From a virus, in the IMG/VR virus record IMGVR_UViG_3300020281_000051, positions 1 through 40,989 of that record: 40,989 nt of DNA; one strand, given 5' to 3'. Within the stretch, counting starts at the first letter, position 1, and the number at the start of each line of letters is the position of its first letter. The translations under genes and the position numbers were made by a program. Of the stretch, positions 16,102 through 37,357 are shown in pieces. The notes beneath the pieces were generated by a model. That model ran no database searches. It was given only the letters and a program-made list of their open reading frames with translations, and was not told where the DNA came from.

Positions 16102-16110
16102 CTATTTATC
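16102..16110 (-). promoter_or_regulatory. T4-type late promoter (TGATAAATA) overlapping the gp7 stop codon
   Basis: The minus strand reads TGATAAATAG, in which TGA is the gp7 stop. The gp8 ATG lies 27 bp downstream, giving a short leader. It would let gp8 and following genes be expressed independently of the 13.85-kb gp7 gene. Confidence 0.55.
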
Positions 16111-25100: not shown

Positions 25101-28100
25101 CTATATTGTGTGGATGTCGTAAATCCACTATTGATAACAATTCTTCTTGGTCTTTCCTGTAAGGCTACTCCAGCAGTATGAGATGTAGATACATTATTGA
25201 TATTGCGTTTAATTGTTACCCGAGAATCATTCGCATTTATACCGACAATTTTTACAAGTTCATTGTCAATTAAATATAAGTCGTTTATATCACATGTTGG
25301 GAAAATAAGATTTCCAGTAACAGAGATATTAGTAACAATACCCGTCTGTCCAGAAGTACCAATGGTCTGACTCAATGTAAGAATATTTGTAGACACACCA
25401 ATGGTATATGTTCCACTAAGTTCCGTAGAAAGAATATTGATGTTTTGAAGAGTGACTACATTACCAGAAGAGAAGTCGTGTGAAGTACTTGCAAATCCAA
25501 CAAATCTACCTTCGACACCAAAAGGTAAAAATTGAACATCTTCAACCGTATTTTGAGTGTATTGAATCTCTTCAACTTCTCTACCTTTAATTGCAGAAAT
25601 TCTAGCAAATGCTCCCGATCCGCCAGTACCCTCACTGTCAAAAAATACACTGTCGCTTACAGTATAGTTATCTCCAGGATTAACAATAAAAAGTCCATTT
25701 ACACCTCCTGGTGTAGCAGATTCTACCCGAGTGAATCCTTCGGTAAAAGCATCGGGTTGAATGAATCCTTTATATTTTGTTCTTGGATTGAGAAGACCAA
25801 GACATCCAGTATAACGTATCCAATCAGTTTCATTGATATCAAAAAAGTCCAAATTGGATTGTTGATCAAAATTCCAATCAATAATTCTATTTTTAAATGT
25901 TGGTCCGATTACATATGGGAAGATTGGTTTTAAGAAACCATTAAATGGACCACTAGAATCTGGAATAGAATTAACAGTACAGAAGTATGCATAAACTCCA
26001 TTCGGAAATTCTGGTGTTTTACAATATCTTCCATTATGAAAATCTAAATCTCCATCACCAATATATTTGTAATCTTCAATAAAAGTACCAGGTGCAAAGT
26101 TTGTTGTGGAAGGTCTTTCGGCATCAATCTGCAGTGCCCAACTACTTTCAAGTCTTTTTACTGTACCACCCTCTTGATTTGCATATCCATATGGACCATA
26201 AATTGGATTACCATCATAAGCCCATCCAACAATTGGAGAGTGATATTTTAATGAATTGCTAACTAGATCATTATCAATATCATCTCTGTAAATTGTATTA
26301 CCTTGTTGATCAATAGAAGTTGATAAGAGTTTTCTTCTTAACTCTCTTCCTGCATATGAATGTGTATATTGTAATCCTCTATTTAATGTTAACGCAGGTA
26401 TTAAAATACCGTCATCCACATTAATTTTTTCTGCTTGAAATGTTCTTTCAAGATTATTAATCGTGAAAGATTTTATAATTGCAGTAAATTGTGCATTTGA
26501 TCCAGTCGGAATAACCTGTACAAATGTATTATTTGGATTATATCCAGATCCACTGTCAAGAATAATAGTTTGTATGATTTTTCCATCTTCAATAACAGGC
26601 ACAACAAGAGCACCAGAACCATCACCTAAAACTTTAATTTCTGGTGGTGAGTTATATGCTGTACCACTATTATTAATAACAATATCAAGTAGTCCACCAT
26701 CTGTAGTAACAATAGGTGTCAACTGTGCATCTTTACCTGCCAATAAATTAAACTGTGGTTGGCGATTATAATTTAAAATTTCTTCAGATCCATAATTTGA
26801 ACCCGAGTTTTTAAGAGATACTGAAATAATTTCTCCAGTAAATACGGGTTGTATTTTAGCATCAAAATTTTGAGATGCTGAAGTTGTAATTCCTAATGGT
26901 GCTTCTAGTTTTACAGTTATAGGTCTATATCTGTATTCATGTGTTCCAGTTCCAGAATCAGTTATTTTTACATATCTACTATTAATATAATTGTAATCTG
27001 CACCTATGGTTGAACCAGTACTAACAGAAATAAGTTCAGATAATCTAAAACTATTTTCGTCAATAACCTTTACATAATACTCTGATGTGGAAGAAATGCC
27101 TGAAGGTAGTGATGAATTGCTGTGATGAGTAATGTTGACAATTTCCTTATCAACATAACCATGCTTCTTAGAATTAATCCTACTATCAAAAATATCATAA
27201 TCTGTTGATTTTACAAATATGGTTTTATTTGTGTAACCACTACCACCATCAGTTACTTCAACTGATCCAACCACATTCTTTTTACTAAAAGATACAATTC
27301 TTTGAAGACCGTCCCCATAAGAGGAAAATCCTACAGTATTAATACCGATAATTGCATCATCATAAGTGTTGTGTAATTTTATAACTACATCATCAACTTT
27401 TCTTACAAAGTAAATTGAATTATCTACTAAACCTTTGATATTATCTTGCCCATCAGTTTTATATACAACTTTCTCAAAATCTCTAAATTTGTGGAATGTA
27501 CCAAATCCAATAGAATTTTCATTTACATTAACATTTTGATACAGACTGCCTGCGTTAAAAGTTTTTTCGTGAGTTACTTTTGTTAACTTGCACTTTGCAA
27601 CAGCACCCGTACCATTTCCCCCAGAAATAGTAATTTTTGGTTCTTCAAGATAGTCAAATCCTTTATCAATGACATTGATTCTCGTCAGTGATCCTCTAAC
27701 ATTACAAACACCTTCTGCTCCAGTTCCAATACCTACCGTTGCTGCAGTAGAATCATCGCTGTCTTCTATTTCTAAAACTGGAGGATTTATGACATCATAA
27801 TTTTTATCACCTGGAGAGGAAACTACAATTTCTTGAATCGGACCATTGTATAAAGTATCAGATGATTTGTAAGAACTGACTTCAACGCCATTCAAAAACA
27901 TTCCTATTCCACCTGGTGAAATGGGGATATCTTTTTCATCTTGTGATTTGGAAACGGGTTTTTTGAACTTTCTTATGATATCTTGAGACAATAAAGATAG
28001 ACCTTTATTTCTAGTCAATTCAAATTTATTGTTAAAAACTGTTCCAAATACGCTAACAAATATTCTACTTCTTATATTTGATCTACTTGTAGCAAGTCTT

Positions 28101-29959
28101 ACTGTAGATGCATTAACTTTGTATATGAAGTATTGACCTTCAGCAATGTTTAAACCAAAATTATTATTGTAACTATAATAGACTGAATCTCCAGTTATAA
28201 ATGCATTTGTTCCAATATTAATATCTTTTCCAGCAAACTGACCACTAAAGGTTACAGAAAGATCTTCTGCCTCAACTGGAGTATTATAGTAATCTGGTAT
28301 AGATGGAGACACTACATAAGCGGCACTATCATTTTCTCCTTCTTGTGCAATGTATACATTCTGAACATTGGCAGAGATATCTTGTAAGTATTGATTTGTT
28401 GTAGAGCTTCCTTTTGATATTCCCTTTCTAATGCTATACTTGACATTTACCGTATCAATTTGGGATGTTAAGTTAATATCAAATACATTTTTATCTGATA
28501 CTGCAATTACAAAGATATCATATTGAGATCCATCAGATCCTGTTACTGTGCCAATATCTCCTAATGTAAAAATATTCTCATCAAAAGTAGTTACTCTGTA
28601 CTGTGCAGCACCATTAAGTTTAATTGCAACTTGCACCATAGACTCAATTTCATATTCTGGTGCTGCATTGACTATCCAACTAGTTACTGCTTGATCCTTA
28701 CTATCTCCACCAATTGATACAATTTGAACCTCATCACCATTTTCATAGTAATAAGAATCTTCTGATTTATATCCAAGTTCTCCTAAAACACCACTAATTC
28801 TTACTCTGATCTGTTCTTCATTTTCTTTAATAGAATATGCATAATCTGGAGTTGTAACTTCTTCATTCAAGTTAAGTGCGACTGGACACTCTAGTCCAAA
28901 AAATTGAGTGGCACTTTTTTTAGTATATGGAATTTCATACCTGACATTATTATCAAAAACTACAACAGTACCCTCTGGGGTAAAACCTAAAGTTGAATCA
29001 ACATCAAGATAAGTTTGTCCAACACCAACTGGATTTGTTATTTTTGTTTTGGGGTGAACCGAGAATTCAAAAGTTTCTAATTCTGGGTTATAATCTAAGC
29101 TTAATTTAAAATACTCTTTACCATCTCTAATCAAACTTTCAACATCAGTGATAGTTCCTGTTGCTTTTGGAATAACTGATGTTTCATCTTGGAATAGTGT
29201 TCTATTCACCAAGTCATTCGGATCTCCCTGTAAAGATTGGACAACCAAATCTCTAGTAATTCGATAATCTGCGTCAGAAGGTTGAATTAAGAAATCTCTT
29301 GGTTTTACAACTTGTACGTCAGTACCAAAAATTAACTTAAATAAGACATTAAAAGATCTATTAGATCCTTTTGAATTATAAAAATCTTTTAATCTAGCAA
29401 CAACATTTTTTTCATTGATTTCGGAGTAAAAATCAAGATTGTCAAAACCTGGTGCATATTGACGTTTATATTTTTTGTAAAGTTCCGCTAAAAATAAAGA
29501 ATTTATGTTGAAGACAGTGCTATCCACATCATGTGGAGATTTAACAGTTTCCACAAACCCAATATCTGCAGAATCATTATCAAAGTATGATGTAATTCCA
29601 GAAAAACCTCTACTACAACCTTCAAAACTAGTTGAGGTCTTGGTTTTATAAAAAATTAATTCTTCACCAATTTGAATAATTGAATTTCTATCAGGAAATC
29701 CTTCAGTGGAAGATACTTTTACAGAACTAGTGGTAAAACCAACATCACTTGTTGTTTGAGTGCTAAAAGTAAGTTCTGATAGATTATTTAATTTTACATA
29801 TTCGTCAATATTATTGATAATGTCCAAGCAACCACCAGGACTTTCTAGACCTTTGTAGTATTCTTCTAAAAATCCAACAAACTCTGGATATGTATCCCTC
29901 ACATACTCAGGAACTTGACCTGAGACTAAGTTAAAAATATTTACTCTGCTTTTTTTCAT
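16109..29959 (-). CDS. 7: Giant baseplate wedge protein gp7-like (4616 aa) with YHYH-type segment and tandem beta modules
   Basis: T4 gp7 (1032 aa) is the wedge initiator contacting gp6, gp8 and gp10. Residues 175-217 here (NEKNVVARLKDFYNSKGSNR, then SFNVLFKLIFGTDVQV) align with the C-terminal part of T4 gp7 (RDAVARFFESRSYDFYSTKG, SYKFLFKVLYNEEVEI), and PEFVGFLEEYYKGL (25-38) parallels FEAFCEAYIQYL. The other roughly 4300 residues are added. They include an RG module (79-120), many G-x-GY repeats, a YHYH-type segment (about 1235-1360: GWAYDGNPIYGPYG, FHNGRYC, GVYAYFCT, FPYVIG), another RG module near 2890-2920, and a tandem array (about 3180-3960) of YDNVTG...LxFxC...STIPHTYVSGG units. It lies between gp6 and gp8 exactly as in T4. 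AGGAA precedes the ATG, 4 bp after the gp6 stop. No frame break is visible. Confidence 0.88.
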   Translation of the reverse strand: MKKSRVNIFNLVSGQVPEYVRDTYPEFVGFLEEYYKGLESPGGCLDIINNIDEYVKLNNLSELTFSTQTTSDVGFTTSSVKVSSTEGFPDRNSIIQIGEELIFYKTKTSTSFEGCSRGFSGITSYFDNDSADIGFVETVKSPHDVDSTVFNINSLFLAELYKKYKRQYAPGFDNLDFYSEINEKNVVARLKDFYNSKGSNRSFNVLFKLIFGTDVQVVKPRDFLIQPSDADYRITRDLVVQSLQGDPNDLVNRTLFQDETSVIPKATGTITDVESLIRDGKEYFKLSLDYNPELETFEFSVHPKTKITNPVGVGQTYLDVDSTLGFTPEGTVVVFDNNVRYEIPYTKKSATQFFGLECPVALNLNEEVTTPDYAYSIKENEEQIRVRISGVLGELGYKSEDSYYYENGDEVQIVSIGGDSKDQAVTSWIVNAAPEYEIESMVQVAIKLNGAAQYRVTTFDENIFTLGDIGTVTGSDGSQYDIFVIAVSDKNVFDINLTSQIDTVNVKYSIRKGISKGSSTTNQYLQDISANVQNVYIAQEGENDSAAYVVSPSIPDYYNTPVEAEDLSVTFSGQFAGKDINIGTNAFITGDSVYYSYNNNFGLNIAEGQYFIYKVNASTVRLATSRSNIRSRIFVSVFGTVFNNKFELTRNKGLSLLSQDIIRKFKKPVSKSQDEKDIPISPGGIGMFLNGVEVSSYKSSDTLYNGPIQEIVVSSPGDKNYDVINPPVLEIEDSDDSTAATVGIGTGAEGVCNVRGSLTRINVIDKGFDYLEEPKITISGGNGTGAVAKCKLTKVTHEKTFNAGSLYQNVNVNENSIGFGTFHKFRDFEKVVYKTDGQDNIKGLVDNSIYFVRKVDDVVIKLHNTYDDAIIGINTVGFSSYGDGLQRIVSFSKKNVVGSVEVTDGGSGYTNKTIFVKSTDYDIFDSRINSKKHGYVDKEIVNITHHSNSSLPSGISSTSEYYVKVIDENSFRLSELISVSTGSTIGADYNYINSRYVKITDSGTGTHEYRYRPITVKLEAPLGITTSASQNFDAKIQPVFTGEIISVSLKNSGSNYGSEEILNYNRQPQFNLLAGKDAQLTPIVTTDGGLLDIVINNSGTAYNSPPEIKVLGDGSGALVVPVIEDGKIIQTIILDSGSGYNPNNTFVQVIPTGSNAQFTAIIKSFTINNLERTFQAEKINVDDGILIPALTLNRGLQYTHSYAGRELRRKLLSTSIDQQGNTIYRDDIDNDLVSNSLKYHSPIVGWAYDGNPIYGPYGYANQEGGTVKRLESSWALQIDAERPSTTNFAPGTFIEDYKYIGDGDLDFHNGRYCKTPEFPNGVYAYFCTVNSIPDSSGPFNGFLKPIFPYVIGPTFKNRIIDWNFDQQSNLDFFDINETDWIRYTGCLGLLNPRTKYKGFIQPDAFTEGFTRVESATPGGVNGLFIVNPGDNYTVSDSVFFDSEGTGGSGAFARISAIKGREVEEIQYTQNTVEDVQFLPFGVEGRFVGFASTSHDFSSGNVVTLQNINILSTELSGTYTIGVSTNILTLSQTIGTSGQTGIVTNISVTGNLIFPTCDINDLYLIDNELVKIVGINANDSRVTIKRNINNVSTSHTAGVALQERPRRIVINSGFTTSTQYRIDRELYFDPRQAVITPSENLIIWSDPIPPTLQTAWDYYTVGVGTGTVNYFDSAAPDGSLEAAKVSFASTTIATDGFGLQFSTVSLSADTYTVSVFLKGSLGGEITHIILEDGLTYHSMEVTLSDDWRRYSFQATTSAGQHRLKIGSIGPESINMFTTPTVYVWGAQVELGTVRTTYYSTQGSAILRTANESGVRLIDDAGPSERKIVSTNPHRLYIPNHALSTNDLITYRVESGDGIKVSTGTTDYRLNDGDKLYAAVYDQDIIGISTAQVGVGSTGGFVGVGSAPLALFNFVDYGTAELNSFQTNAISVIEGDVSKKTATVTTKVNHGLLDQDRITFEAVAGIQTTVSIAYDDLNRRMVANSKTFVDADVNVDKNTFNITQHNFVNGQKVILSSSSPPGGLVNGGIYYAIVLDDNTIQLSDFYYEVISSDTEIQIIDITTQSSGKFSSINPELFGTRNSTVIFDLSDPSLTANSLPAFNFYLYSDADLTTEYYTSEGSVGDFDVKTSGVIGQPGAKLELIIDDEVPDELYYNLVPITYNGASISKLGILRDEFNIVNNNKLSIVRSKFTISAPISGVTTNTFSYTLNETPERSGYDKFEALLAYKSSSENAIGPIEDVSIDSIGRGYRKLPYVKEVVSIAGTNAILLPESTTIGRVDDVVLTDIGFDYPSDVTLRPSAQFPYTYKIEPLSKLQSVKIINPGTNYFIPPQLIVLDGFTGRVNTEVELEYTVGETEVEIIRNTTGLYNVTPKILPVNNPNGIRIDSIAYNNISKKVTVGFAVTFANDDSFPFKVGDKVIVENTNIDNSSIGRGYNSANYGYALFTVETANSFDGGDVPTITYDLSDFILPGEIPGNYDAFDSFGTVTPEPFFPTFDIEIAKDTFRRGEVVTAQDGNTGIVQSYDLRNEYLKLRSKQPFDTNDLIVGQSSQNKGIISSVEGISANYKIRSNSITKKGFLKSTGKTNESFQRLHDNDYYQYFSYAVRSPITFDKWNPLVSNLNHTAGFKKFSELTVDSYDPSISGISTNQNLNTLIAVSDLTQTVNLNTVKDFDIGREKTIDVDGNLVSNEILFNLPFLAQYQEFIGNRVLTIDDFSDLFDGERRGFPIKTQTQDIFNIMFDGSDATKVSVGEGTINLTNHYFVSGEVVEYVPPDGNPANSISISPTDFGPGIGTTTLLPSRITIIKQDNQKVRVATSATNALQFNPIGVGLTGVGIGSTHIFRSLEPNNRLLVTINGTIQSPMVGTAITTATASAIGVGTTVISVVGVSSIFGGNLIRIDDEVMLIAGVDNNTNTFTVRRGWMGTTDVAHNNNTKIVKQSGNYSVVENNLHLSEAPWGNIPVGLGSTATSNNEIDYTGLTTSSRFSGRIFLRSALSAGFTTTFTDAYDNNYVYDDISEQFNGINTSFYLKYEGADIDNVVASNTILLIDDIFQGPQRLGNVVTNIEGDYKLEAGGGQLLLGFNGEITDPSIHNDINVNKTPKGGVIVSVASEEGYGIQPLVSAGGTAVVSAAGTVTAIAIGNSGSGYRSGLQTVSVGVQTASLIESNITSIGIATIVDGHVTGVAITNSQVFYAPREISNIGYSSVTGITTVTTTTAHNLSLGSQVTIVGAAFTCDYYPPVDVTNALYDNVTGIMTVTTGLSTFTVSNLTYDNVSGIATINTIEPMKIVPMTAIGRSFSLAGLALSCVGYGNTIGVVGFNYNNTNGVAEIITDAAHGLSNGDDFKMRELIFSCNVGGATGYGQTFTITQFQYDNVTGLSTITTSDPITGIIGIGSDIRLDNLEFSCPGGSGITTTIFPDGTQGNTFTVTNVIASDRFELNVGVSTIPHTYVENDAGQVTAGLTTTMFPDGSQGYFFRVQAVGTTTSFTVNVGPSTISHTYVSGGVVQVGITTNIFPGNQQNSPLGDTFSIISAPDWYTLTFNAGVSTIPHTYVSGGNLIFGHKLKVGTDVSLTGLGFTCALDGGVGIHTYPRISDPTYCGTQVTKINSNSEFELNVGVTTVPTFYSSGGIVEEIIIAPRQINNSPTGSDPAASGTSVIKVVDDFTFIIDSGESPYTHFYKRCGKVTQELPVIFDAPSSYYNVPLVYKEGTVGLGTGATVDLVPSLDSQILTFELNNFGYGYRDTDQLTVAVGGTTGIPTFATKTSNAILPVVAGGDYPHTFVSAVEGSVTVTGIGTTTPTNATYSGSTGLLVLTIPGHSYTTSNTVGIATGTLGFTCGMDGDSTTTFYPKSTDPIAGIVTGITTTTTNTITLFVGISTLVKYPVHDATYDPATGLSVLTIGTHNLTTANSIRLANESLLFKCSLDDYNRIEAYPRPFKDRVYGKSVGITSFTSDSITILAGPSVESQRYQHEFVGVGSFKPFELTVETTFQSKFSGWNVGEFIVLDEIDQFFNGSRRLFPLSVNAEPISFFAKANSGINLQSNLLVFINDILQTPGEGYQFTGGSTIRFTEAPKGGTIGFSTEGDTAKLFMYTGTQTIDVQTVDVLPSVEVGDELQLYSNQSTTFTEDPRLVMEIKAADKVITNNYAGQGVTLNELFERPLTWSKQTVDKIIDSEFIGKDRVYYEPVINPTTNIIRTVGAGDSIAYVNSVRPFFDNPYEGIGTKEKSIVELAITDTVAGATATAVFGVNGTIANVLVDNIGYGYTSAPEVTIQAPIVGDQALAGAQIGVAGTITQINVSAGGTGYDSGPVSSITVKSQGGGFPPTIEDGTNKFVGARLKSETGIGVGAVADVEISPINFNVASISVKEGGKDYKTGDILFIDTFDNVGLGTSARGFRLSSPVRFTVADIKPPQVLVAPPVRYHEECQFVTYQGDYGLVVGVGTTTIGAGTSIGVALDLFIPMDSEIRRSLDIPLTTIQPGDFFQLNNTNFVGASQTSLGSDGSVIGISTLHADMVYECISVSTKQAVIPAGINGLGTTVGFGTTVSTVVVALQSAGSNNVVGLATTAFYGTYSFGKIGLPVRTKRKEFAATNGTSQSGIGTNPIIRRKNPIKYKGYIS
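19308..19626 (-). repeat. Direct repeats in gp7 encoding HTYV units
   Basis: The plus-strand word ACATAAGTATGAG occurs at 19308, 19464 and 19614, spaced 156 and 150 bp (multiples of three). Each copy sits in a longer similar context coding for STIPHTYV or STISHTYV followed by a Gly-rich turn. The spacing defines repeat units of about 50-52 aa. Diverged copies continue on both sides, for example DYPHTFVS near 18620. Confidence 0.75.
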
Positions 29960-29963
29960 ATTC

Positions 29964-31868
29964 CTAGAGTCTTATGTATTGTCCGTTAAGGTAGCTGGAA
30001 GAAGAAATATATTGTGATCCAGAAAGATCAATTCCTGAGGAAATTACATCTGATACCATTTGTATGGATGATAAAGATGTATCTAACTGAAGATAAAGGT
30101 CCTGTAATCCGATAATATCATTAGACTGTGATAATGAAGACAGTTCAATAATCGGATCTCCAAATTTTGTTTTAGAAGTTGCTGATATTTCTAAGGAGTT
30201 TATTCTTATTTCCCCTTTTTTATAATCAATTGTTCCAATATTGTCACGAACAACAACTGGTTCTCCCGTTGAATCTAATTTAAATAAGAATACAGTGCCA
30301 GTATCACTATCGCTAGGTGCATCTGATATATAGACAGTTCCCGAGATACCAGGAACTGAGAATCCACTACTTTTTATATTATATCCATCATCATTTTTAA
30401 TGTAAAATTTGTTACCAAAACAAACTTCATATTCTGATGGATCATTTATTATTATTTTAAAATCTCTTCTAATAGCAACGTTTGTGATATTAGAAGTTAT
30501 TGCATTTGAAGAATCGTCTATCAACTTCAAAAATTTACTGTATTTGAATCTAGAACCATATCTATTTAACTCATCAGATTTAGCAAAAGATTCTACATTT
30601 TTTTGAACTAGCGCCCTAATTTTTGAAGAATCACCAAGGTTTTGGTTGTAGTACACATTAGATTGATACTCAATGTAAAGATACTTGAGATCAATAAATT
30701 CTGGAATAATTCCAGCAACAGCATAATTCCTTAGAGACGTTTTAATATTGTCTTTTACTATATTTGGTAAATATGATCCATTTTTTGGTTTTACTGTAAT
30801 AAAAACTTTTCCATACTTTGGTGGATCAAGTTCTTCCCCACCGAACACGGATACAGAATCTGCTTCTGGATATATTTTGGGTATTAACGCTTCGTAATCA
30901 GATGCTGTAACCGCTCTATTCTGAGATGCATAGACTCTAGGAGCAAGTTTTTTAATGGATTCGACTGATTCTATAGCAGCACCATCTCCCGCCGCTTCTA
31001 CGGTCGTTACGAGGGGTGCTATGACCTTTACTGGACTACCATTGTTATCAAAGAATCTACCAGAGAATCTAAATGAATCAATTCCATTTCCTTTTTCACC
31101 GTTAGTAACAACATAATTGACAATGATAAAATTATCATTCTTTAACTTACTTCCGAAAGATCCATCACCAAAAAGTAATTCATATCTTTGATCTTCGATC
31201 TCATTGATGAAAAATACATCATCAGTTGGTTTAACATCAGTTAAATTATTTGCAAACTTATATACTCTTGTTATATTACTATTCTTACTTTCTCTTACTT
31301 CTACTCTAATCAGATTAGTATCAATATTTGGATTCTGTAGAATAAATCTTTGATTTTTATTATTGCTATCTACAACAAAAGTATTTTGTACGTATGCTCC
31401 TTCATAGATATCAACACCATCAAAGGACACTAGACCTTGAGACACTGGAGACGTTATATCTTCAGGAATAGAGTACACATAACTACGACCACCAAACGTC
31501 ACCGCAGAGGTCGCTACAATGCCCTTACGGAGCGTTACCGACACTGGGTTAGTAGAGAATGACGATAGATCAATATAAAACGATATAGACGCTCTGGACG
31601 CTGTTACAGATCGTGGAAGATATCCAAGATTTCTTGCTAACGATACAACATTCTCTCTCAATGTTGCACCATCTAAGAATACCTCATTACTGAGCATATT
31701 AGCATTATATGCACTAATATAAGTGTTATATGCTAATGTATCTAAAAGTACAGTAAAGTTAGATCCTTCAAAATCATAGTCAGTAAATTTGCCATCTGCC
31801 CGCAGATAGCTCTTTATTGATGCTTTGATTTCGTTAAAATCTAAAGAGGCTACGTTGACTAGTGACAT
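29964..31868 (-). CDS. 6: Baseplate wedge protein (gp6-like)
   Basis: T4 gp6 is the structural core of the wedge and forms the iris dimer ring around the baseplate hub; it belongs to the J/gp47 family. The protein has 634 aa (T4: 660). The opening FNEIKASIKSYLRADGKFTD, then TVLLDTLAYNTYISAYNANM and FLDGATLRENVVSLARNLGY, are characteristic gp6 blocks. The ATG directly follows the gp25 stop (TAAATG), in the wedge operon order 25-6-7-8. Confidence 0.94.
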   Translation of the reverse strand: MSLVNVASLDFNEIKASIKSYLRADGKFTDYDFEGSNFTVLLDTLAYNTYISAYNANMLSNEVFLDGATLRENVVSLARNLGYLPRSVTASRASISFYIDLSSFSTNPVSVTLRKGIVATSAVTFGGRSYVYSIPEDITSPVSQGLVSFDGVDIYEGAYVQNTFVVDSNNKNQRFILQNPNIDTNLIRVEVRESKNSNITRVYKFANNLTDVKPTDDVFFINEIEDQRYELLFGDGSFGSKLKNDNFIIVNYVVTNGEKGNGIDSFRFSGRFFDNNGSPVKVIAPLVTTVEAAGDGAAIESVESIKKLAPRVYASQNRAVTASDYEALIPKIYPEADSVSVFGGEELDPPKYGKVFITVKPKNGSYLPNIVKDNIKTSLRNYAVAGIIPEFIDLKYLYIEYQSNVYYNQNLGDSSKIRALVQKNVESFAKSDELNRYGSRFKYSKFLKLIDDSSNAITSNITNVAIRRDFKIIINDPSEYEVCFGNKFYIKNDDGYNIKSSGFSVPGISGTVYISDAPSDSDTGTVFLFKLDSTGEPVVVRDNIGTIDYKKGEIRINSLEISATSKTKFGDPIIELSSLSQSNDIIGLQDLYLQLDTSLSSIQMVSDVISSGIDLSGSQYISSSSYLNGQYIRL

Positions 31869-32270
31869 TTATCGTGACGGTAGTAATACGAACTGCAATT
31901 GTTGGGCTTGAGCATCAATTCCAACGATAAAATACTTTATTGTCACATCCATTTGACCTAGATCATAATTTGGAACTACTTTTACTAATTCTAATTCAAC
32001 TCTAGGTTCATTCTCTTTAATTACAATTTCAATTTCATCTTGTAAACTCTTTGCAGTAAAAAAGCTTATATTTTCAAATAATAATCTATTGACAGCACAA
32101 CCAAAATCTGGATCAAAAGGTTTTTCTCCTTGTATGGTCAAGACCAGATTTTGAACCGCTCTTGATATTGCATATTCATTTTTCAAAATAACTAAGTCTC
32201 GCGTCAAAGGATTTCTCTTTAACGTGAGACTTATATCTCTAAATCCTATACTAGTGCGATCAAGCGGCAT
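31869..32270 (-). CDS. 25: Baseplate wedge protein (gp25-like)
   Basis: gp25 is a small lysozyme-fold-like sheath-initiator component of contractile tails that binds gp6 and gp53 and has no catalytic role. At 133 aa it matches T4 gp25 (132 aa). It has the conserved IQGEKPFDPDFGCAVNRLLF block, with N-terminal DLVILKNEYAISRAVQNLVL. The family EPR core motif is present (residues 88-90, in KENEPRVELE). It is the first gene of the wedge operon and is preceded by a late-type promoter. Confidence 0.95.
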   Translation of the reverse strand: MPLDRTSIGFRDISLTLKRNPLTRDLVILKNEYAISRAVQNLVLTIQGEKPFDPDFGCAVNRLLFENISFFTAKSLQDEIEIVIKENEPRVELELVKVVPNYDLGQMDVTIKYFIVGIDAQAQQLQFVLLPSR

Positions 32271-32299
32271 GATATTTATTAAATGTTTGCCTTATCACT

Positions 32300-32309
32300 T
32301 ATTTATCAC
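32300..32309 (-). promoter_or_regulatory. T4-type late promoter (GTGATAAATA) upstream of gp25
   Basis: The minus strand reads GTGATAAATAAG ending about 29 bp before the gp25 ATG, in the 53-bp gap after the 58-aa gene. The position fits a late promoter for the wedge operon. A second AT-rich word, AATAAATATC, lies right at the ATG, too close to act as its -10. Confidence 0.5.
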
Positions 32310-32323
32310 ACTTTTTATGAACT

Positions 32324-32500
32324 TCAGTCTTCCAAACGCTCCAGATAATCGGTCTCTGGAGAGTGAAGTTCTTCTTTCTGCTTTGCACGACGTTTTCTTG
32401 CTGCCATATCGAGATATTTGTCACTATCAACCTCTGTAATTAGGGTCATTCCCTCTTCAATGAAGATTTCTCCCTTATCGACCTTGTGATAATTGCCCAT
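32324..32500 (-). CDS. Small protein (58 aa), function unknown
   Basis: A 58-codon frame opens MGNYHKVDKGEIFIEEGMTL and continues with a basic patch (AARKRRAKQKEE) and an acidic end (YLERLED, then TGA). It has the strongest ribosome-binding site in the window, AAGGAG followed by an A-rich spacer before the ATG, which supports it being real. It sits between the 234-aa gene and gp25. No domain was recognised. Confidence 0.8.
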   Translation of the reverse strand: MGNYHKVDKGEIFIEEGMTLITEVDSDKYLDMAARKRRAKQKEELHSPETDYLERLED

Positions 32501-32548
32501 TTTTTGCTCCTTAGTTGAATTTTGGAACTTTTAGAGGGGTTACTATCC

Positions 32549-33253
32549 CTATTGTGTATCAAGAGGTCTGTTTTCTTGTGATTTGTAGGTCTCAATACCC
32601 TCTTTTTCACGTTCTTTTGCTGTTTTCCAAAAATATTCTTCCTCACGACCCATACCAAGTCGATCAAAACCGTTCTCAACCGAGTAAAATTCTGTAGAAA
32701 CCTTAAAATCGGGCATTTTTGGTTCTACAGGAGTTAAACTATTGTCAAAAATACGCATTCTGTTGTTTGGATACAGTGCATACTGCCCATTTTCGAGTTC
32801 AATGAGGTTGTGTGACTTGTGCTCAGCGGGATTTTCGCTTGTTGCATAGTCAATAACATCAGGATCTTGATGATAATTGTCTATTGTGCAAATATATGTG
32901 CCTTTTTGTATTCCATGGTCTCTAGTATATAGTTCAAAGTCCATCGACCCAATAAATTGTTTACAAATGGAGACAACGCCATAATCCATACAGTTCCAAA
33001 ACTGTAAATTTGGAAGATTCATGTCTGGATCTGGTAAAACAGGATCAGAGAGAAACGCGCTGATAGGCAGTTTATCATACATTGCTGCATATTCAGGCAA
33101 ATACGTCTCAAAATAAAAAGCACGTCCAGGAATCGACTTTGCCGATACCCAGACGCCTTTAACAAACTCACCATGCCCAAATTGGTGGTCGGTAAGGTAT
33201 TCTTTACGAACCCAAACTTCTTGAGATGGGAGATTGCAGATTAAAGCTGCCAT
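32549..33253 (-). CDS. Conserved-looking cyanophage protein (234 aa), function unknown
   Basis: No catalytic motif was recognised. The sequence opens MAALICNLPSQEVWVRKEYL and is rich in aromatic residues (VSAKSIPGRAFYFETYLPEY, NCMDYGVVSICKQFIGSMDF). Its charged C-terminal tail (GREEEYFWKTAKEREKEGIE) is probably helical. I recall similar proteins near the baseplate wedge genes of marine T4-like phages, but no function. The upstream gap contains a GTAAATA late-like box and the short inverted repeat AGTAGTT-TTT-AACTACT (33257-33273) in the putative leader. ATG start; no clear Shine-Dalgarno. Confidence 0.85.
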   Translation of the reverse strand: MAALICNLPSQEVWVRKEYLTDHQFGHGEFVKGVWVSAKSIPGRAFYFETYLPEYAAMYDKLPISAFLSDPVLPDPDMNLPNLQFWNCMDYGVVSICKQFIGSMDFELYTRDHGIQKGTYICTIDNYHQDPDVIDYATSENPAEHKSHNLIELENGQYALYPNNRMRIFDNSLTPVEPKMPDFKVSTEFYSVENGFDRLGMGREEEYFWKTAKEREKEGIETYKSQENRPLDTQ

Positions 33254-33275
33254 AACAGTAGTTTTTAACTACTAC

Positions 33276-33283
33276 TATTTACC
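33276..33283 (-). promoter_or_regulatory. Late-type promoter variant (GGTAAATA) overlapping the stop of the 48-aa gene
   Basis: The minus strand reads GGTAAATAGT 23-30 bp before the ATG of the 234-aa gene. The TAA is the stop of the upstream 48-aa gene. It departs from GATAAATA at one core position, so confidence is lower than for the other late boxes. Confidence 0.35.
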
Positions 33284-33425
33284 GTCCTTGTCCTCTGTAA
33301 CGCTTTTTAGCCGAGTTACGCGAGGTGGCAGCATATTTTGTATGCTGTCCGCTTCCCTGACGAGTTTTTTTCGGGGTAGACTCGATGAACTGAGTGCCCA
33401 AAAGGGACTTTTTAACTTTTGCCAT
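33279..33425 (-). CDS. Small basic protein (48 aa), function unknown
   Basis: A 48-codon frame opens MAKVKKSLLGTQFIESTPKK and continues TRQGSGQHTKYAATSRNSAKKRYRGQGR as a basic, Gly/Ser/Thr-rich tail. It has about 12 Lys/Arg and one Glu, so nucleic-acid or ribosome contact is possible, which is inference. I recall nearly identical small proteins in marine T4-like phages. It starts 5 bp after the stop of the 50-aa gene. Confidence 0.8.
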   Translation of the reverse strand: MAKVKKSLLGTQFIESTPKKTRQGSGQHTKYAATSRNSAKKRYRGQGR

Positions 33426-33430
33426 AATAA

Positions 33431-33583
33431 TTACTCAATAGGTTCTAGTTCAAGATCGGAAGGTTCAAAGTCAGCACCTTCATAGTACTGCATAGCAAGT
33501 TCTTGAAGGATTTCTGCTGCTTCATCAAAAGGGATGTCAGAGTAAATCTTACGTCCCTTACATTTGATATTAACTCTTTGCAT
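33431..33583 (-). CDS. Small acidic protein (50 aa), function unknown
   Basis: It opens MQRVNIKCKGRKIYSDIPFD, then EAAEILQELAMQYYEGADF and an acidic tail ending LELEPIE. The pattern is a short beta hairpin, a helix and an acidic end. The ATG at 33583 lies one base after the TGA of the glycosyltransferase gene. The open frame extends further upstream within that gene, but the extension is only its shadow. Confidence 0.78.
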   Translation of the reverse strand: MQRVNIKCKGRKIYSDIPFDEAAEILQELAMQYYEGADFEPSDLELEPIE

Positions 33584-33584
33584 A

Positions 33585-34370
33585 TCAGATAACACGGGTT
33601 TTCTCGTGACCGACACGAATACGAGGGTCACACCAGGTTTCAACACCTGCTTCTTTAGCATCCAGACAGAAGGAGACATCTTCTCCGCACATATCTTGAA
33701 CACCGCCAGATTCAAAGACCTGCATCTTAGGAGCGAACCAAGGATACTCAAGACGCTCAAAGACACCCTTACGGATCATAACCCATCCAAAACCAGTGTA
33801 GTCCACGGTGAATGGTTTACGACGCTTTGCCATGGAATCGACAGTCTCATGATTCATAACACCACCGTTCTTGCGGAAGTCTTCTTCATCAAGCCAGTGA
33901 GCAACAGAGGTAGTCATCCCATCTTCGGTGGCATACCAACCAGCTGCGATCTCTCGCTCAGGTTGCTCGTTTCCGTCTTTGTCTGGACCAGGAACTGCGA
34001 GATCACAGAGTTGCCAGAATTTTTCAGTGTTGAATACAATATCATTATCAATCCAGAGTTGATAATCATAAGGAAGTTTACCATCCCAGGGGATCTGATT
34101 AGGACCACGCAGAACATTTGCTCCAAGGCACTTGCAACGTGCAAAGTTAACCATAGAGGAATAATCCTGAGAGATCTGAATGGTCATTTGGTTCTGCACC
34201 AGATCAAAGCAGAGTTGAACAAACGACTTCAGGAACGTGTAAGAACAATTCCTACCAGGAAGGCAGAATACAATCTGCTTACCCTTCATACGTTCTTTGA
34301 TGGCCTGATAGTCCCACTCTTCTTTTGGTTTAGTAGGTGCTGATGCTTTTACAGTAAATCCTTTTGCCAT
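33585..34370 (-). CDS. Putative GT-A-fold glycosyltransferase (261 aa)
   Basis: This is a probable nucleotide-sugar-dependent glycosyltransferase. KQIVFCLPGRNCSYTFLKSF (31-50) looks like the first beta strand and donor-binding loop. QLWIDNDIVF (104-113) carries a DxD-type metal motif, D108-x-D110. CGEDVSFCLDAKEAG (228-242) fits the ED motif near the catalytic base, and VGHEKTR has the C-terminal His (255) often ligating the metal. The substrate is unknown; candidates are virion glycoprotein, phage DNA or host glycan. It is followed at a 1-bp gap by the 50-aa gene, within a string of tiny genes next to the tail operon. Family assignment rests on motifs only. Confidence 0.75.
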   Translation of the reverse strand: MAKGFTVKASAPTKPKEEWDYQAIKERMKGKQIVFCLPGRNCSYTFLKSFVQLCFDLVQNQMTIQISQDYSSMVNFARCKCLGANVLRGPNQIPWDGKLPYDYQLWIDNDIVFNTEKFWQLCDLAVPGPDKDGNEQPEREIAAGWYATEDGMTTSVAHWLDEEDFRKNGGVMNHETVDSMAKRRKPFTVDYTGFGWVMIRKGVFERLEYPWFAPKMQVFESGGVQDMCGEDVSFCLDAKEAGVETWCDPRIRVGHEKTRVI

Positions 34371-34418
34371 GAGTTTAGATTTTTTTCAGTTCAATTATAA
34401 CAGATTATGTATGTAATG

Positions 34419-34583
34419 TCAATACGAAGCATCGGCAACCACAGTGTAGTCAACCGTAAGTTCTTCATATTCATACCGTGTTTGATCGATGTTCCTCCAT
34501 ACAACTAAGAAGTCTTCTTCGCTTAATTTAGCATATTCAACCTTATTCTCTTTGTCGTAGATATGGTAAATCTTTGTATCCAT
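34419..34583 (-). CDS. Small acidic protein (54 aa), function unknown
   Basis: It reads MDTKIYHIYDKENKVEYAKL, then SEEDFLVVWRNIDQTRYEYE and ends TVVADASY. The alternation of charged and aromatic residues suggests a small alpha/beta fold. It starts 6 bp after the stop of the 42-aa membrane protein gene, suggesting co-transcription. A start codon, a clean frame and an operon-like position support it; no homologue is certain. Confidence 0.72.
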   Translation of the reverse strand: MDTKIYHIYDKENKVEYAKLSEEDFLVVWRNIDQTRYEYEELTVDYTVVADASY

Positions 34584-34589
34584 TATTAC

Positions 34590-34718
34590 TTAATTCGTTA
34601 ACAGATTATATATGATTGCAAGTAGAAATCCGAGGGGTACGAGCAGTACCTTTGGATTACGGATAACCAAACCTACAAAAATAACTCTCCACATATTCCA
34701 ATAAGGTTTTTGTGACAT
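34590..34718 (-). CDS. Small membrane protein (42 aa)
   Basis: It starts MSQKPYWNMWRVIFVGLVIR and continues NPKVLLVPLGFLLAIIYNLLTN, giving one or two hydrophobic segments (about 12-19 and 24-40) around a basic turn. A single-pass or hairpin inner-membrane protein is likely. The ATG at 34718 is chosen; the open frame extends upstream only as the shadow of the divergent plus-strand gene. It is the first gene of the minus-strand small-gene run and stands back to back with the 297-aa gene. Role unknown. Confidence 0.65.
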   Translation of the reverse strand: MSQKPYWNMWRVIFVGLVIRNPKVLLVPLGFLLAIIYNLLTN

Positions 34719-34757
34719 AACTAGTTGTTCAGTTATCCAATCACAGTATAGCATATA
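34719..34757. promoter_or_regulatory. Divergent intergenic region (39 bp) between two start codons
   Basis: The two ATGs point away from each other across 39 bp. The minus strand has TATACT near 34742-34747, a plausible sigma70-type -10 for the small-gene run. The plus strand has AT-rich words (GTATAG, TATAAT), but the TATAAT overlaps the plus ATG, so that promoter would need to start upstream. No Shine-Dalgarno is evident on either side. Assignment is weak. Confidence 0.3.
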
Positions 34758-35651
34758 ATGGATATTATCAACGGTAAATACGCCAAATGTCATGGGGTGT
34801 TTAAGAAAAAGGATGTCGATGAAATTCGTAAACAAGTTGATTGGCAGTTTGAAAATAACTTACATCCACATTGTATTGCTGAACAATCCTATAAGAAGCA
34901 AGGTGAGTTCTTTAAAAGTCCTACAACAACTGAGAGCTTTATCAATTGTCATGGTCTGATGACTTCTGGAGAACCTCAGATGTATCCATATGACATAGAG
35001 ATCTGGAATACCTTCACAGTCACTATGTGTCAAAAGGTTAGAAAATATTTGGAAAAAACTAATCCAAAACTTTTGGAAAGACAATGGGAATACAAAGAAC
35101 CTTGCATTAGTGGTTATAGCGTCTTCCCTCATTCAGTCTATGCAATGAAGTGGAGTTCTACAGAGAGATTCCGTAAACATCGTAAACTCTCCTTCTCAAA
35201 TCATGATTACCCTCTGCATTGGTCTGGTGGATATAGATTGAAACTCACCAAGGATATCAAATACAAAAATGATAAATTCATAAACGTTATATACTACCTC
35301 GACAAAGGTACGAAGTTTATCACAGACTCTCAAAGAAAGGATCTCAATATCTTCGATGGGGGCACCGTAGTAAAACCCTCCAAAAATTTTAGAACCGTTC
35401 AAAATAATAAAATCTTCAAAGATGAAAGTGAGAATAACTCCGCATTTATCTTCACAGATCATGAATGGTCATTAGCAGGAGAGAATCTTACCGCTATTGT
35501 CTTTACCTTCGCAATCTTCTCCGAGAATCGTCATTCTAGTTGGATGTATCCTAGAGTGGTAGACTATGAGAATCGCATGAAGCGTCGTTGCAAAAACTCT
35601 ATAGCAGTCTCTCAGTACATCTTATCTGAAACTGGTAAGATTCATAAGTGA
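34758..35651 (+). CDS. Unidentified 297-aa protein, the only plus-strand gene of the window
   Basis: No family was recognised. The opening is MDIINGKYAKCHGVFKKKDV. The middle and end have a strand-rich pattern: HWSGGYRLKL, KFINVIYYLDKGTKFI, FDGGTVVKPS, SAFIFTDHEWSLAGENLTAI, VFTFAIFSEN. This loosely recalls the double-stranded beta-helix of 2-oxoglutarate/Fe(II) oxygenases, but the HxD...H...R set cannot be placed with confidence. The protein is basic with many Lys and aromatic residues. It is flanked by a divergent short intergenic region and two plus-strand terminators, so it is its own transcription unit inside a minus-strand late region, like an inserted moron gene. ATG start, no visible Shine-Dalgarno. 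Confidence 0.8.
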   Translation: MDIINGKYAKCHGVFKKKDVDEIRKQVDWQFENNLHPHCIAEQSYKKQGEFFKSPTTTESFINCHGLMTSGEPQMYPYDIEIWNTFTVTMCQKVRKYLEKTNPKLLERQWEYKEPCISGYSVFPHSVYAMKWSSTERFRKHRKLSFSNHDYPLHWSGGYRLKLTKDIKYKNDKFINVIYYLDKGTKFITDSQRKDLNIFDGGTVVKPSKNFRTVQNNKIFKDESENNSAFIFTDHEWSLAGENLTAIVFTFAIFSENRHSSWMYPRVVDYENRMKRRCKNSIAVSQYILSETGKIHK

Positions 35652-35722
35652 TGGGTGTGGACTATTAATCAATCGTTGTTCAGACGAGAGCGCCCAGACA
35701 CCCTCTTTATATATCGACCCCT

Positions 35723-35752
35723 TCGCTCAAAAAATTTTGGGCGAATTTTTTT
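35723..35752 (+). terminator. Rho-independent terminator after the 297-aa gene
   Basis: Arms TCGCTCAAAA and TTTTGGGCGA pair over 10 bp (one G-U) around a tiny A/T loop and are followed by TTTTTTT. It lies 72 bp after the plus-strand gene. Confidence 0.7.
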
Positions 35753-35792
35753 ATATGCAATCGAAATCACTCGCTCGATCTGTCACCTCTGT

Positions 35793-35816
35793 AGGTTAGG
35801 GTAGTTAACCTTTTTT
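35793..35816 (+). terminator. Second plus-strand terminator
   Basis: AGGTTA / TAACCT form a 6-bp stem around a 7-nt loop, running directly into T6. It follows the first terminator by 40 bp, making a tandem stop for the plus-strand transcript. Confidence 0.6.
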
Positions 35817-36067
35817 AATCGGGGGGGGGGCAGGGGCACACATTAGTATATCTTATCATACCCATAGACTGCCATAACGAATGCTAATCAGTGCCAATGG
35901 ACACTCACGAATGTGGCACACACTGCCGAAACCCACTGCGCCGCAAGGGATCTCAGCGACTGTGCCAATCCACGAACTGCCATTGTTTCATTATATAACG
36001 CAACAGTGCCACAAATATATCTGTCCACCCCTCCAAAACTGTCACATAATGAAATATAAAGAAAGAC
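35817..36067. other. Non-coding stretch with G10 run and recurrent TGGCA/TGCCA motif
   Basis: No convincing gene. It starts with ten consecutive G (35821-35830). Between 35870 and 36011 the word TGCC(A/G) occurs six times on the plus strand (starting 35870, 35892, 35924, 35963, 35978 and 36007), mostly in the context ACTGCCA or CAGTGCCA, plus one inverted TGGCA at 35914. A 71-codon plus-strand open frame (35881-36096) runs into the minus-strand terminator and is not convincing. The region could hold a structured RNA or protein-binding sites. Confidence 0.5.
35986..36054. repeat. 9-bp inverted repeat TTTCATTAT ... ATAATGAAA
   Basis: The arms at 35986-35994 and 36046-36054 are perfect reverse complements separated by 51 bp. 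They are AT-rich and enclose the last TGCCA copy. A binding-site pair or a long-range stem is possible. Confidence 0.55.
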
Positions 36068-36094
36068 AAAAAAAAGCGACCCATAAGGGTCGCT
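36068..36094 (-). terminator. Rho-independent terminator of the 227-aa/126-aa operon
   Basis: AGCGACCC / GGGTCGCT form a perfect 8-bp GC-rich stem with a 4-nt loop, followed on the minus strand by an eight-base T run. It lies 33 bp after the 126-aa gene stop. Confidence 0.85.
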
Positions 36095-36126
36095 GATCTG
36101 TGGAGAATTCTGTGGAATCTGTGGAA

Positions 36127-36507
36127 TCAGAGCGCCTTTAATAGGTGCGCCCAGTACGGGATCCCTCTATAGGTTGCCGCCCTGGGGGTGACCCATTGTC
36201 CGTTGATCAGGGTCGCCAGCGCATAAGGTTCGCCGCTAGGGGTTCTCCAGACTGTTACGGGTTCCCCTGTGACCCGATTGTGGGTTTTAGCGATCTCGAC
36301 CGCTTCCGCAAGGTCGCAGCACCAGTCGCACTCATACCAATCAACCTGATGCGCCTGAGCAGGCATCACAACAAAATGGCAGACCCTGGCGCGGTTCAGA
36401 TCGCTTAGCGCCTGCAGTTCGGTTCCTTTCGGTTCCATTGTTTCCATAGTGGGAGAACTGTTGTTCGGATCCATTCTGCCAGATCTCGATTGATTGGCAA
36501 GGGTCAC
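36127..36507 (-). CDS. Protein of 126 aa, function unknown, coupled to the HhH-like gene
   Basis: It contains a Cys pair region WYECDWCCDLAEAVEIAK (about 57-74), then VTGEPVTVWRTPSGEPYALA and INGQWVTPRAA, a small beta-rich end. The start is GTG at 36507, overlapping the upstream stop as GTGA with AAAGG about 7 bp before it, so it is translationally coupled. An internal ATG at residue 12 (about 36474) is the alternative. The GC-rich codon use fits the rest of the right-hand region. No known domain was recognised. Confidence 0.72.
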   Translation of the reverse strand: MTLANQSRSGRMDPNNSSPTMETMEPKGTELQALSDLNRARVCHFVVMPAQAHQVDWYECDWCCDLAEAVEIAKTHNRVTGEPVTVWRTPSGEPYALATLINGQWVTPRAATYRGIPYWAHLLKAL

Positions 36508-37187
36508 ACGAGACCTTTATGGATGCGCCTGTAAGCGACCCAGGTGATCGCTTGCATCTGTCCTGGGGTGATTGTCTCCTTTGTAACGCCTGAGGCGATC
36601 TCAGCGGCGCGACAATAATCCGCCTGAATGTTTCTAAAGGTCTTAGAACTTATCGAGGGAACTTCTGTCACACTGCTGACACTTCCGTTCCAAATGTTAA
36701 AAGCATGTCCGTCAATACAGGGCGACTCAGTGTTTCCGTTGTGGAGAATGTTTAGGTAAAAAGCAGTAACTTTCTGCCCCTTCAAAATGTTACAAATAGC
36801 GTCGGAATCTAGGTCACCCATAAGGATCGCGATTGCCTTTGCTTTGTTCTTCTTAAAGGTGCAAACTTTCACCTCAAAAGGATCAAGATCGGCACGGATT
36901 GCCTTTGCTAAATTCTCACAATCAATGCAATTTCTTTCCCACTTATTGTTTGGAGATATTGCCGCCATTGCGCCTGCGATCTGCTCAGGTGAGAATTGAT
37001 ATTCTGCGGCAATTCTTTTCACAATTCCGTGGGCGTTAGAATACCAATCCATGCCGATCTGGCGGTCTAAAATGTTCGCTTGGAAGAACATTCCTAGGAT
37101 CGCGTTGTGGGATGCCATGGTGAGAACCGTTGCGGGAGAAGGGGTCTGGCGGGGCAAGGTGTGAAGAACCCTCGCCCTGTTGATCAC
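36504..37187 (-). CDS. HhH-GPD DNA-glycosylase-like protein (remote), 227 aa
   Basis: Residues 48-86 (WYSNAHGIVKRIAAEY, AGAMAAISPNNKWERN) and 131-165 (ICNILKGQKVTAFYLNIL, CIDGHAFNIW) match a pattern I recall in many phage proteins of unknown function. The order ILKGQKVTAFYLNIL then CIDGHA resembles the helix-hairpin-helix and catalytic Lys...Asp arrangement of Nth/MutY glycosylases (GVGRKTA...VDTHV). K139 would correspond to the catalytic Lys and D159 to the catalytic Asp. No Fe-S cysteine cluster is visible. If real, it would act on damaged or modified DNA; this is inference. The longest frame starts at GTG 37187; ATG at 37118 (MASHNAILGMFF) is an equally good start. Confidence 0.72.
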   Translation of the reverse strand: MINRARVLHTLPRQTPSPATVLTMASHNAILGMFFQANILDRQIGMDWYSNAHGIVKRIAAEYQFSPEQIAGAMAAISPNNKWERNCIDCENLAKAIRADLDPFEVKVCTFKKNKAKAIAILMGDLDSDAICNILKGQKVTAFYLNILHNGNTESPCIDGHAFNIWNGSVSSVTEVPSISSKTFRNIQADYCRAAEIASGVTKETITPGQMQAITWVAYRRIHKGLV

Positions 37188-37357
37188 AAGGTAGGCGGGA
37201 TTGACCGACCGCGCAACGGGTCAATTCCGAAGAGATTCTGAGTCTTCCTTTCGTGACATCCACGCAACAAAATGTGAATTAAAGGTTGCGTTAAGTGTTA
37301 TTAACTTGCGCTTGACGTTCTGGCGGCGGGTGATAGGTGATGCTGATCAAATCTTAT
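37188..37357. other. Intergenic sequence, nothing identified
   Basis: This 170-bp stretch upstream of the 227-aa gene should contain its promoter, but no box stands out. Small frames in it are short and lack ribosome sites. It passes into the inverted repeat that begins at 37358. Confidence 0.4.

Follow-up and report, generated by a model that had tools for sequence, protein, structure and literature searches.

Genomic setting of the locus

The window (the whole stretch of DNA analyzed here) is a 40,989-base record of a marine virus of the T4-like cyanophage type (Kyanoviridae), and its nearest annotated relatives include S-SM2 and S-SCSM1. Family searches placed gp8-, gp6- and gp25-like baseplate genes on the minus strand, together with phrog_1574 and a gene bearing a ferredoxin annotation (phrog_3704). 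The order around the site of interest is gp6, gp25, phrog_3704, phrog_1574, small ORFs, a slot, a conserved intergenic element and a small-gene region; the slot is variable and lies at the right-hand edge of the structural region of T4-like cyanophages. In the window, the slot is occupied by a plus-strand gene, P0001, and the following features were delineated (L numbers denote related contigs).

33585-34370, minus: phrog_1574 gene, the left syntenic anchor, with a weak glycosyltransferase-like match (PHROG search)
34419-34583, minus: small ORF (MDTKIYHIYD...), left neighbor conserved in L205-L208
34590-34754, minus: small hydrophobic ORF forming a divergent pair with the plus-strand gene; L244 homologue 81% identical
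34745-34753, minus: extended -10-like box TGCTATACT of the leftward operon, directly left of the insert (consensus only)
34753-35650, plus: inserted block of 898 bp relative to the empty sites of L103 and L130, with AT common to both junctions
34758-35651, plus: CDS P0001, 297 aa, divergent 2OG-Fe(II)-oxygenase-like (predicted double-stranded beta-helix) protein, assigned from the ORF, codons, dN/dS, homologues and fold
35722-35752, plus: intrinsic terminator T1 with a 10 bp stem, 4 nt loop and T7 tail (-11.8 kcal/mol)
35743-35818, strand not given: Kyanoviridae intergenic element, which holds the proposed second terminator
35790-35805, plus: invariant 16-nt core of the element, TGTAGGTTAGGGTAGT (minus strand, ACTACCCTAACCTACA)

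A second contig, L001, is identical to the window from 28758 to 36078 apart from one indel in a G-run, so that a single-contig chimera is unlikely at the locus. Past 36078, the two abruptly become ~25-30% divergent (window 36075-36130; L001 7340-7400) at a point that coincides with a minus-strand intrinsic terminator (36094-36075); this break likely represents a recombination breakpoint between the structural and small-gene regions. The GC content climbs sharply, up to 0.58, at 36100-37300, where a gene pair including DUF7178 (PF23802, phrog_3842) is located that produced no blastn match in phage records. Elsewhere in the window, two giant minus-strand ORFs of 4616 and 2575 aa (16109-29959 and 6758-14485) lie among the baseplate genes and are probably giant gp7/gp10-type baseplate or fiber proteins of this phage group. 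A perfect TTGACA-17-TATAAT promoter with a TG extension precedes the phrog_1574 gene (34422-34394, minus).

A plus-strand gene under purifying selection

P0001 is a real gene under purifying selection. Its ORF opens with ATG and, at 297 aa, exceeds the longest ORF (198 codons) obtained when the region was dinucleotide-shuffled 2,000 times. Among the six frames, its own scores best on codons (0.008 per codon, the yardsticks being 0.041 for a true neighboring gene and -0.34 for the antisense ORF of the same neighbor), and its codon usage fits the phage's own signature. The dN/dS is 0.19 against the closest homologue, in L244, and 0.11-0.19 across three independent family pairs. The initial annotation of a lone plus-strand gene holds: all tested ORFs with family matches are on the minus strand, and 34758-35651 is the sole long plus-strand ORF that is not antisense to them.

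Presence, absence and probable exchange at the slot

The same annotation, which took the layout to be that of an inserted gene, is borne out by comparison with related contigs. L103 and L130 share the flanks of the window and lack the gene, and the junctions correspond to the start and stop codons, the insert comprising the ORF plus about 4 nt. The L103 junction reads AGTATAGC|ATGGGTGTG, against AGTATAGC-[insert]-ATGGGTGTG in the window; the longer reads are ...AGTATAGC|ATGGGTGTGAAC... and ...AGTATAGC-[898 bp]-ATGGGTGTGGAC..., respectively. Thus, the window and L244 are filled, L103 and L130 are empty, and L205-L208 are filled with a 36% identical allele. The gene was either gained or lost precisely from start to stop.

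Despite purifying selection, P0001 has diverged far more than the neighboring proteins. The silent-site divergence between P0001 and its L244 homologue (dS 1.03) is roughly double that of the neighboring genes (0.51-0.52), and P0001 and P0002 are 36% identical, against about 90% for the adjoining phrog_1574 product in L205. We read these contrasts in dS and identity as allele exchange at a fixed slot.

In other contigs (L003, at -757..-104 of its element, L083, L171, L101 and L125), the cargo of the same slot, judged by eye from translations, includes minus-strand genes for 2OG-Fe(II) oxygenase-like proteins, an HNH-like gene, an SGNH-like pair and an unrelated plus-strand ORF. The latter ORF, in L125, was considered as a P0001 relative and rejected, as it encodes a different and apparently unrelated protein.

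Expression signals

The gene was initially credited with two tandem terminators of its own, of which one stood. T1 (35722-35752) has a counterpart in L244 (-12.6 kcal/mol) with the pairing kept through G-U compatible changes, is absent from the empty-site contig L103, and is probably the gene's own terminator. The second (35790-35816) lies in the element, which is conserved in cyanophages lacking P0001, and the hairpin there is not preserved. Because the insert ends at the stop codon, neither proposed terminator is within the inserted unit.

The initial annotation also proposed independent, perhaps early or host-directed, expression, for which T1 is a credible gene-specific signal. Upstream of P0001, no convincing plus-strand promoter was detected, the sigma-70-like matches being weak, and the late NATAAATA motif was not found on the plus strand. 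The start codon of P0001 is just right of the minus-strand -10-like box TGCTATACT, which is conserved as TGCTATAAT in L205/L208, and 3 nt separate it from the start of the small minus-strand ORF at 34590-34754. A near-symmetric TATA box common to both directions is possible but speculative.

A conserved intergenic element

About 295 cyanophage records match the core TGTAGGTTAGGGTAGT, and the P0001 gene is missing from nearly all of them; the element was annotated as "none" in nearly all the rows shown for these records. Of the loci retrieved, 179 contain the core; since this very motif was used to retrieve many of them, the unbiased evidence is the set fetched with phrog_1574. The core occurs once per genome in all four complete genomes checked, in one of them with a mismatch, and in the loci examined the element lies to the right of the phrog_1574/gp25 block. 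A T-run follows ~6 nt downstream of the core (positions +21 to +24 are at least 96% T), often succeeded by a G/C-rich run.

Several identities for the element were rejected. As a terminator, it lacks a maintained hairpin (no conserved hairpin was detected in the element), and where the gene is lacking, plus-strand terminators (in 14 of 138 loci) are no commoner than in the shuffle background. There is no GC-skew extremum at the element in S-ShM2 or S-SM2, as would mark a replication origin; by inspection, the core is GTA-N8-TAG with an invariant N8 rather than the NtcA site GTA-N8-TAC, and the repeat spacing is wrong for a Pho box. Rfam produced no match in the window, and a string search of the literature with the core retrieved no phage paper. 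The remaining candidates are a leader or promoter of the leftward operon, an RNA-processing or pairing site, and a packaging or replication site. Possibly a more interesting discovery than the gene, the element is a candidate site of regulation or processing that is simple to test and would serve an entire virus family.

Homologues of P0001

P0001 had been described as belonging to no recognizable family. Indeed, no library names it: no match was found in Pfam, NCBIfam, PHROG (E < 0.1) or PDB, or in phage records by tblastn. Relatives nevertheless exist. Direct searches gave nothing usable, and the homologues were reached by inspecting the equivalent locus of related contigs. Exact-peptide searches retrieved only the near-identical contig L001 and nothing from bacterial genomes, and a scan of genome contigs for the pattern GYxVFPHS produced 37 chance-level stretches with no clear relative among them.

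The L244 copy shares 72% protein identity with P0001 in the same slot and orientation. A 230-aa homologue was identified in L133/L205 (E about 1e-26), and from it further homologues in L206, L207 and L208, such that L205-L208 carry four ~36% identical copies, again with slot and orientation unchanged. In the window, L244 and L205-L208, the gene is always on the plus strand, flanked on one side by a small gene of the minus strand and on the other by the conserved element. A third clade (L235/L236/L237/L298 and others) sits in a psbD-talC-zwf-gnd-HNH cassette (names read from translated ORFs) and is codirectional with it; hence, it is the slot rather than the family that accounts for a lone, reversed gene. 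The family HMM (A3) produced no match in S-SM2, S-ShM2 or Sf-FS3, where the family is either absent or beyond reach, and a string search of the literature found no description of the family.

Predicted fold and probable link to 2OG-Fe(II) oxygenases

Even for the P0001-family relatives, Pfam gave no match. The L208 member matches phrog_274 (E=7.7e-4), whose members in S-SM2, S-ShM2 and Sf-FS3 are Pfam 2OG-FeII_Oxy_3/_5 proteins, and the A3 HMM matches the cyanophage 2OG proteins of L252/L254/L220 at 0.003-0.006, barely above noise. A clade-3 protein matches S-SCSM2R_18 with E=2e-3 in the search of phage records and 2e-10 by BLASTP as a single comparison; this isolate protein looks canonical (P-H-V-H ... 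YYIQNPDKEYGT ... FFDGSKIMHCG), and Pfam gives it no score. With hhalign, the family aligned to cyanophage 2OG profiles at only 42-60% probability. The real score exceeded those of nearly all column shuffles, but 2 of the 60 A6 shuffles were spuriously high over 4-10 columns, and the profile comparison is thus noisy at this depth.

Structure prediction with AF2, using the family members alone as input with no 2OG sequences added, yielded a model that was coherent, though of low confidence (pTM 0.54, mean pLDDT 47); a single-sequence model (pLDDT 34) was discarded. The predicted fold is a jelly-roll, and the leading PDB, VIA-align and BFVD matches are 2OG oxygenases. The top Foldseek rows against PDB were OkaE, FtmOx1 and P3H1, none reaching E 0.001 and with TM about 0.35. 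In BFVD, the first-ranked match had E=8.2e-4, and most leading rows were 2OG oxygenases, several from cyanophages. The best VIA-align match was 3bvc (Z 10.0 over 161 residues), and prolyl hydroxylases dominated the list. The early guess of a double-stranded beta-helix enzyme accordingly divides: the fold is upheld, given that the best PDB and BFVD matches of the model are 2OG-Fe(II) dioxygenases and that the P0003/phrog_274 links agree; the term "enzyme" is doubtful because the H-x-D/E...H triad is absent. That P0001 belongs to a rapidly evolving branch within the superfamily of 2-oxoglutarate/Fe(II) dioxygenases (double-stranded beta-helix proteins), of which cyanophages carry many copies, is well supported; the branch is divergent and probably non-canonical, and P0001 is not a proven oxygenase.

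Iron site and possible function

Neither P0001 nor P0002 contains an H-x-D/E motif anywhere, and no H-x-D/E...H iron triad, as expected of the superfamily, is conserved in the family alignment. Among the charged, Cys and His positions, only H65, H125, D28 and D166 are invariant, and these could form an unrecognized metal site. The distal His and the 2OG-binding Arg/Lys are not conserved across the family; clade 3 retains a His where S-SCSM2R_18 has the distal His. Since neither the facial triad nor the Arg/Lys that usually binds 2OG can be recognized, we infer either partner or ligand binding or a remodeled metal site.

In the most likely account, P0001 is auxiliary cargo open to exchange, and its product is a remodeled, probably non-canonical 2OG-oxygenase-like protein. 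The cargo occupies the variable slot as an ORF-sized unit, present or absent at exact boundaries; it would be transcribed rightward, opposing the minus-strand operon, with the transcript stopped by T1 ahead of the conserved element. The predicted protein would probably act during infection, binding a partner or ligand as a pseudo-oxygenase or using a remodeled metal site. We hold this account as a whole, that is, slot cargo, an oxygenase scaffold without a recognizable triad and a rightward transcript ended by T1, with reasonable confidence. A bolder version, in which phage-specific pseudo-dioxygenases use an iron-less 2OG scaffold to bind a cyanobacterial target and are swapped start to stop beside a universal single-copy cyanophage control element, is put forward tentatively.

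In the main competing account, the protein is a catalytically active 2OG/Fe(II) oxygenase whose metal ligands are unusual (such as the conserved H65, H125 and D166 or, within the P0001 clade, H154-W-S and H235) and whose substrate is a protein, nucleic acid or lipid of the host or phage. The predicted model does resemble active dioxygenases, His and Asp residues are invariant over the clades, and the clade-3 His coincides with the distal His of S-SCSM2R_18; nevertheless, the lack of H-x-D/E in P0001 and P0002 and the variation of the distal His and 2OG-binding Arg/Lys make such activity unlikely.

It appears highly improbable that P0001 functions in the virion or in its assembly and lies on the opposite strand by chance: baseplate genes are close by, but there is no virion-family match, the fold is oxygenase-like, the gene comes, goes and is exchanged among close relatives, and one clade resides in a metabolic cassette. 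Homology to a late virion protein, specified beforehand as the refuting observation, did not turn up. An artefact, either a spurious ORF or a chimeric contig join, might be suspected from the composition shift near 36,000 and the divergence of the second contig after 36,078; given the essentially 100% match of L001 across 28758-36078, the same arrangement in L244 with its 72% protein identity, the ORF length and the dN/dS, its probability is close to nil, and both forms are refuted by L244 and L205-L208.

Comparison with known cyanophage systems

Cyanophages carry up to 24 2OG-Fe(II) oxygenase genes per genome, the viral functions of which, according to a paper on such a genome, had not been specifically investigated (PMC9602691); these numerous genes are thought to be exchanged mainly inside the phage gene pool (PMC9602691, PMC9964418, PMC3037559). 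Like the cyanophage oxygenases of phrog_274 (PF13640, PF13759), P0001 has a predicted double-stranded beta-helix, is cargo in variable slots, and shows the IYYL/IYYVN strand motif followed by GT as well as terminal F-x-F strands. Unlike them, the family has no H-x-D/E, no 2OG Arg/Lys, no distal His outside clade 3 and no Pfam score, and P0001 has a long insert and extra C-terminal helices around 264-297. The structural matches to the 2OG-oxygenase-like proteins 3bvc/2rg4 and the prolyl hydroxylases PHD2 and P4H, the best in VIA-align (Z about 8-10 over 146-180 residues), come with 3-12% identity, and the active-site triad is unmatched in P0001. Retention of the fold and loss of the iron site under purifying selection suggest that part of the cyanophage 2OG expansion acts without oxidation, and the relatives with and without the gene provide a clean presence/absence pair for testing.

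Hyperplastic regions with cargo genes are known in T4-like cyanophages (PMC2984593). The P0001 slot resembles such hypervariable or hyperplastic regions (PMC2984593, PMC3037559) in that auxiliary-type cargo is exchanged between conserved modules, but differs from the published g15-g18 region (gp17-gp18) in lying beyond gp25 and adjoining the conserved intergenic element. Clade 3 is 25% identical over 143 aa to S-SCSM2R_18 (PQ898602, a hypothetical protein of a Synechococcus phage) and shares with it the motifs CW-x-SF, NPD-x-x-YGT and EN...FD...H; unlike the P0001 family, S-SCSM2R_18 keeps a canonical-looking H-x-H and distal His, and its locus is between ssb and gp53.
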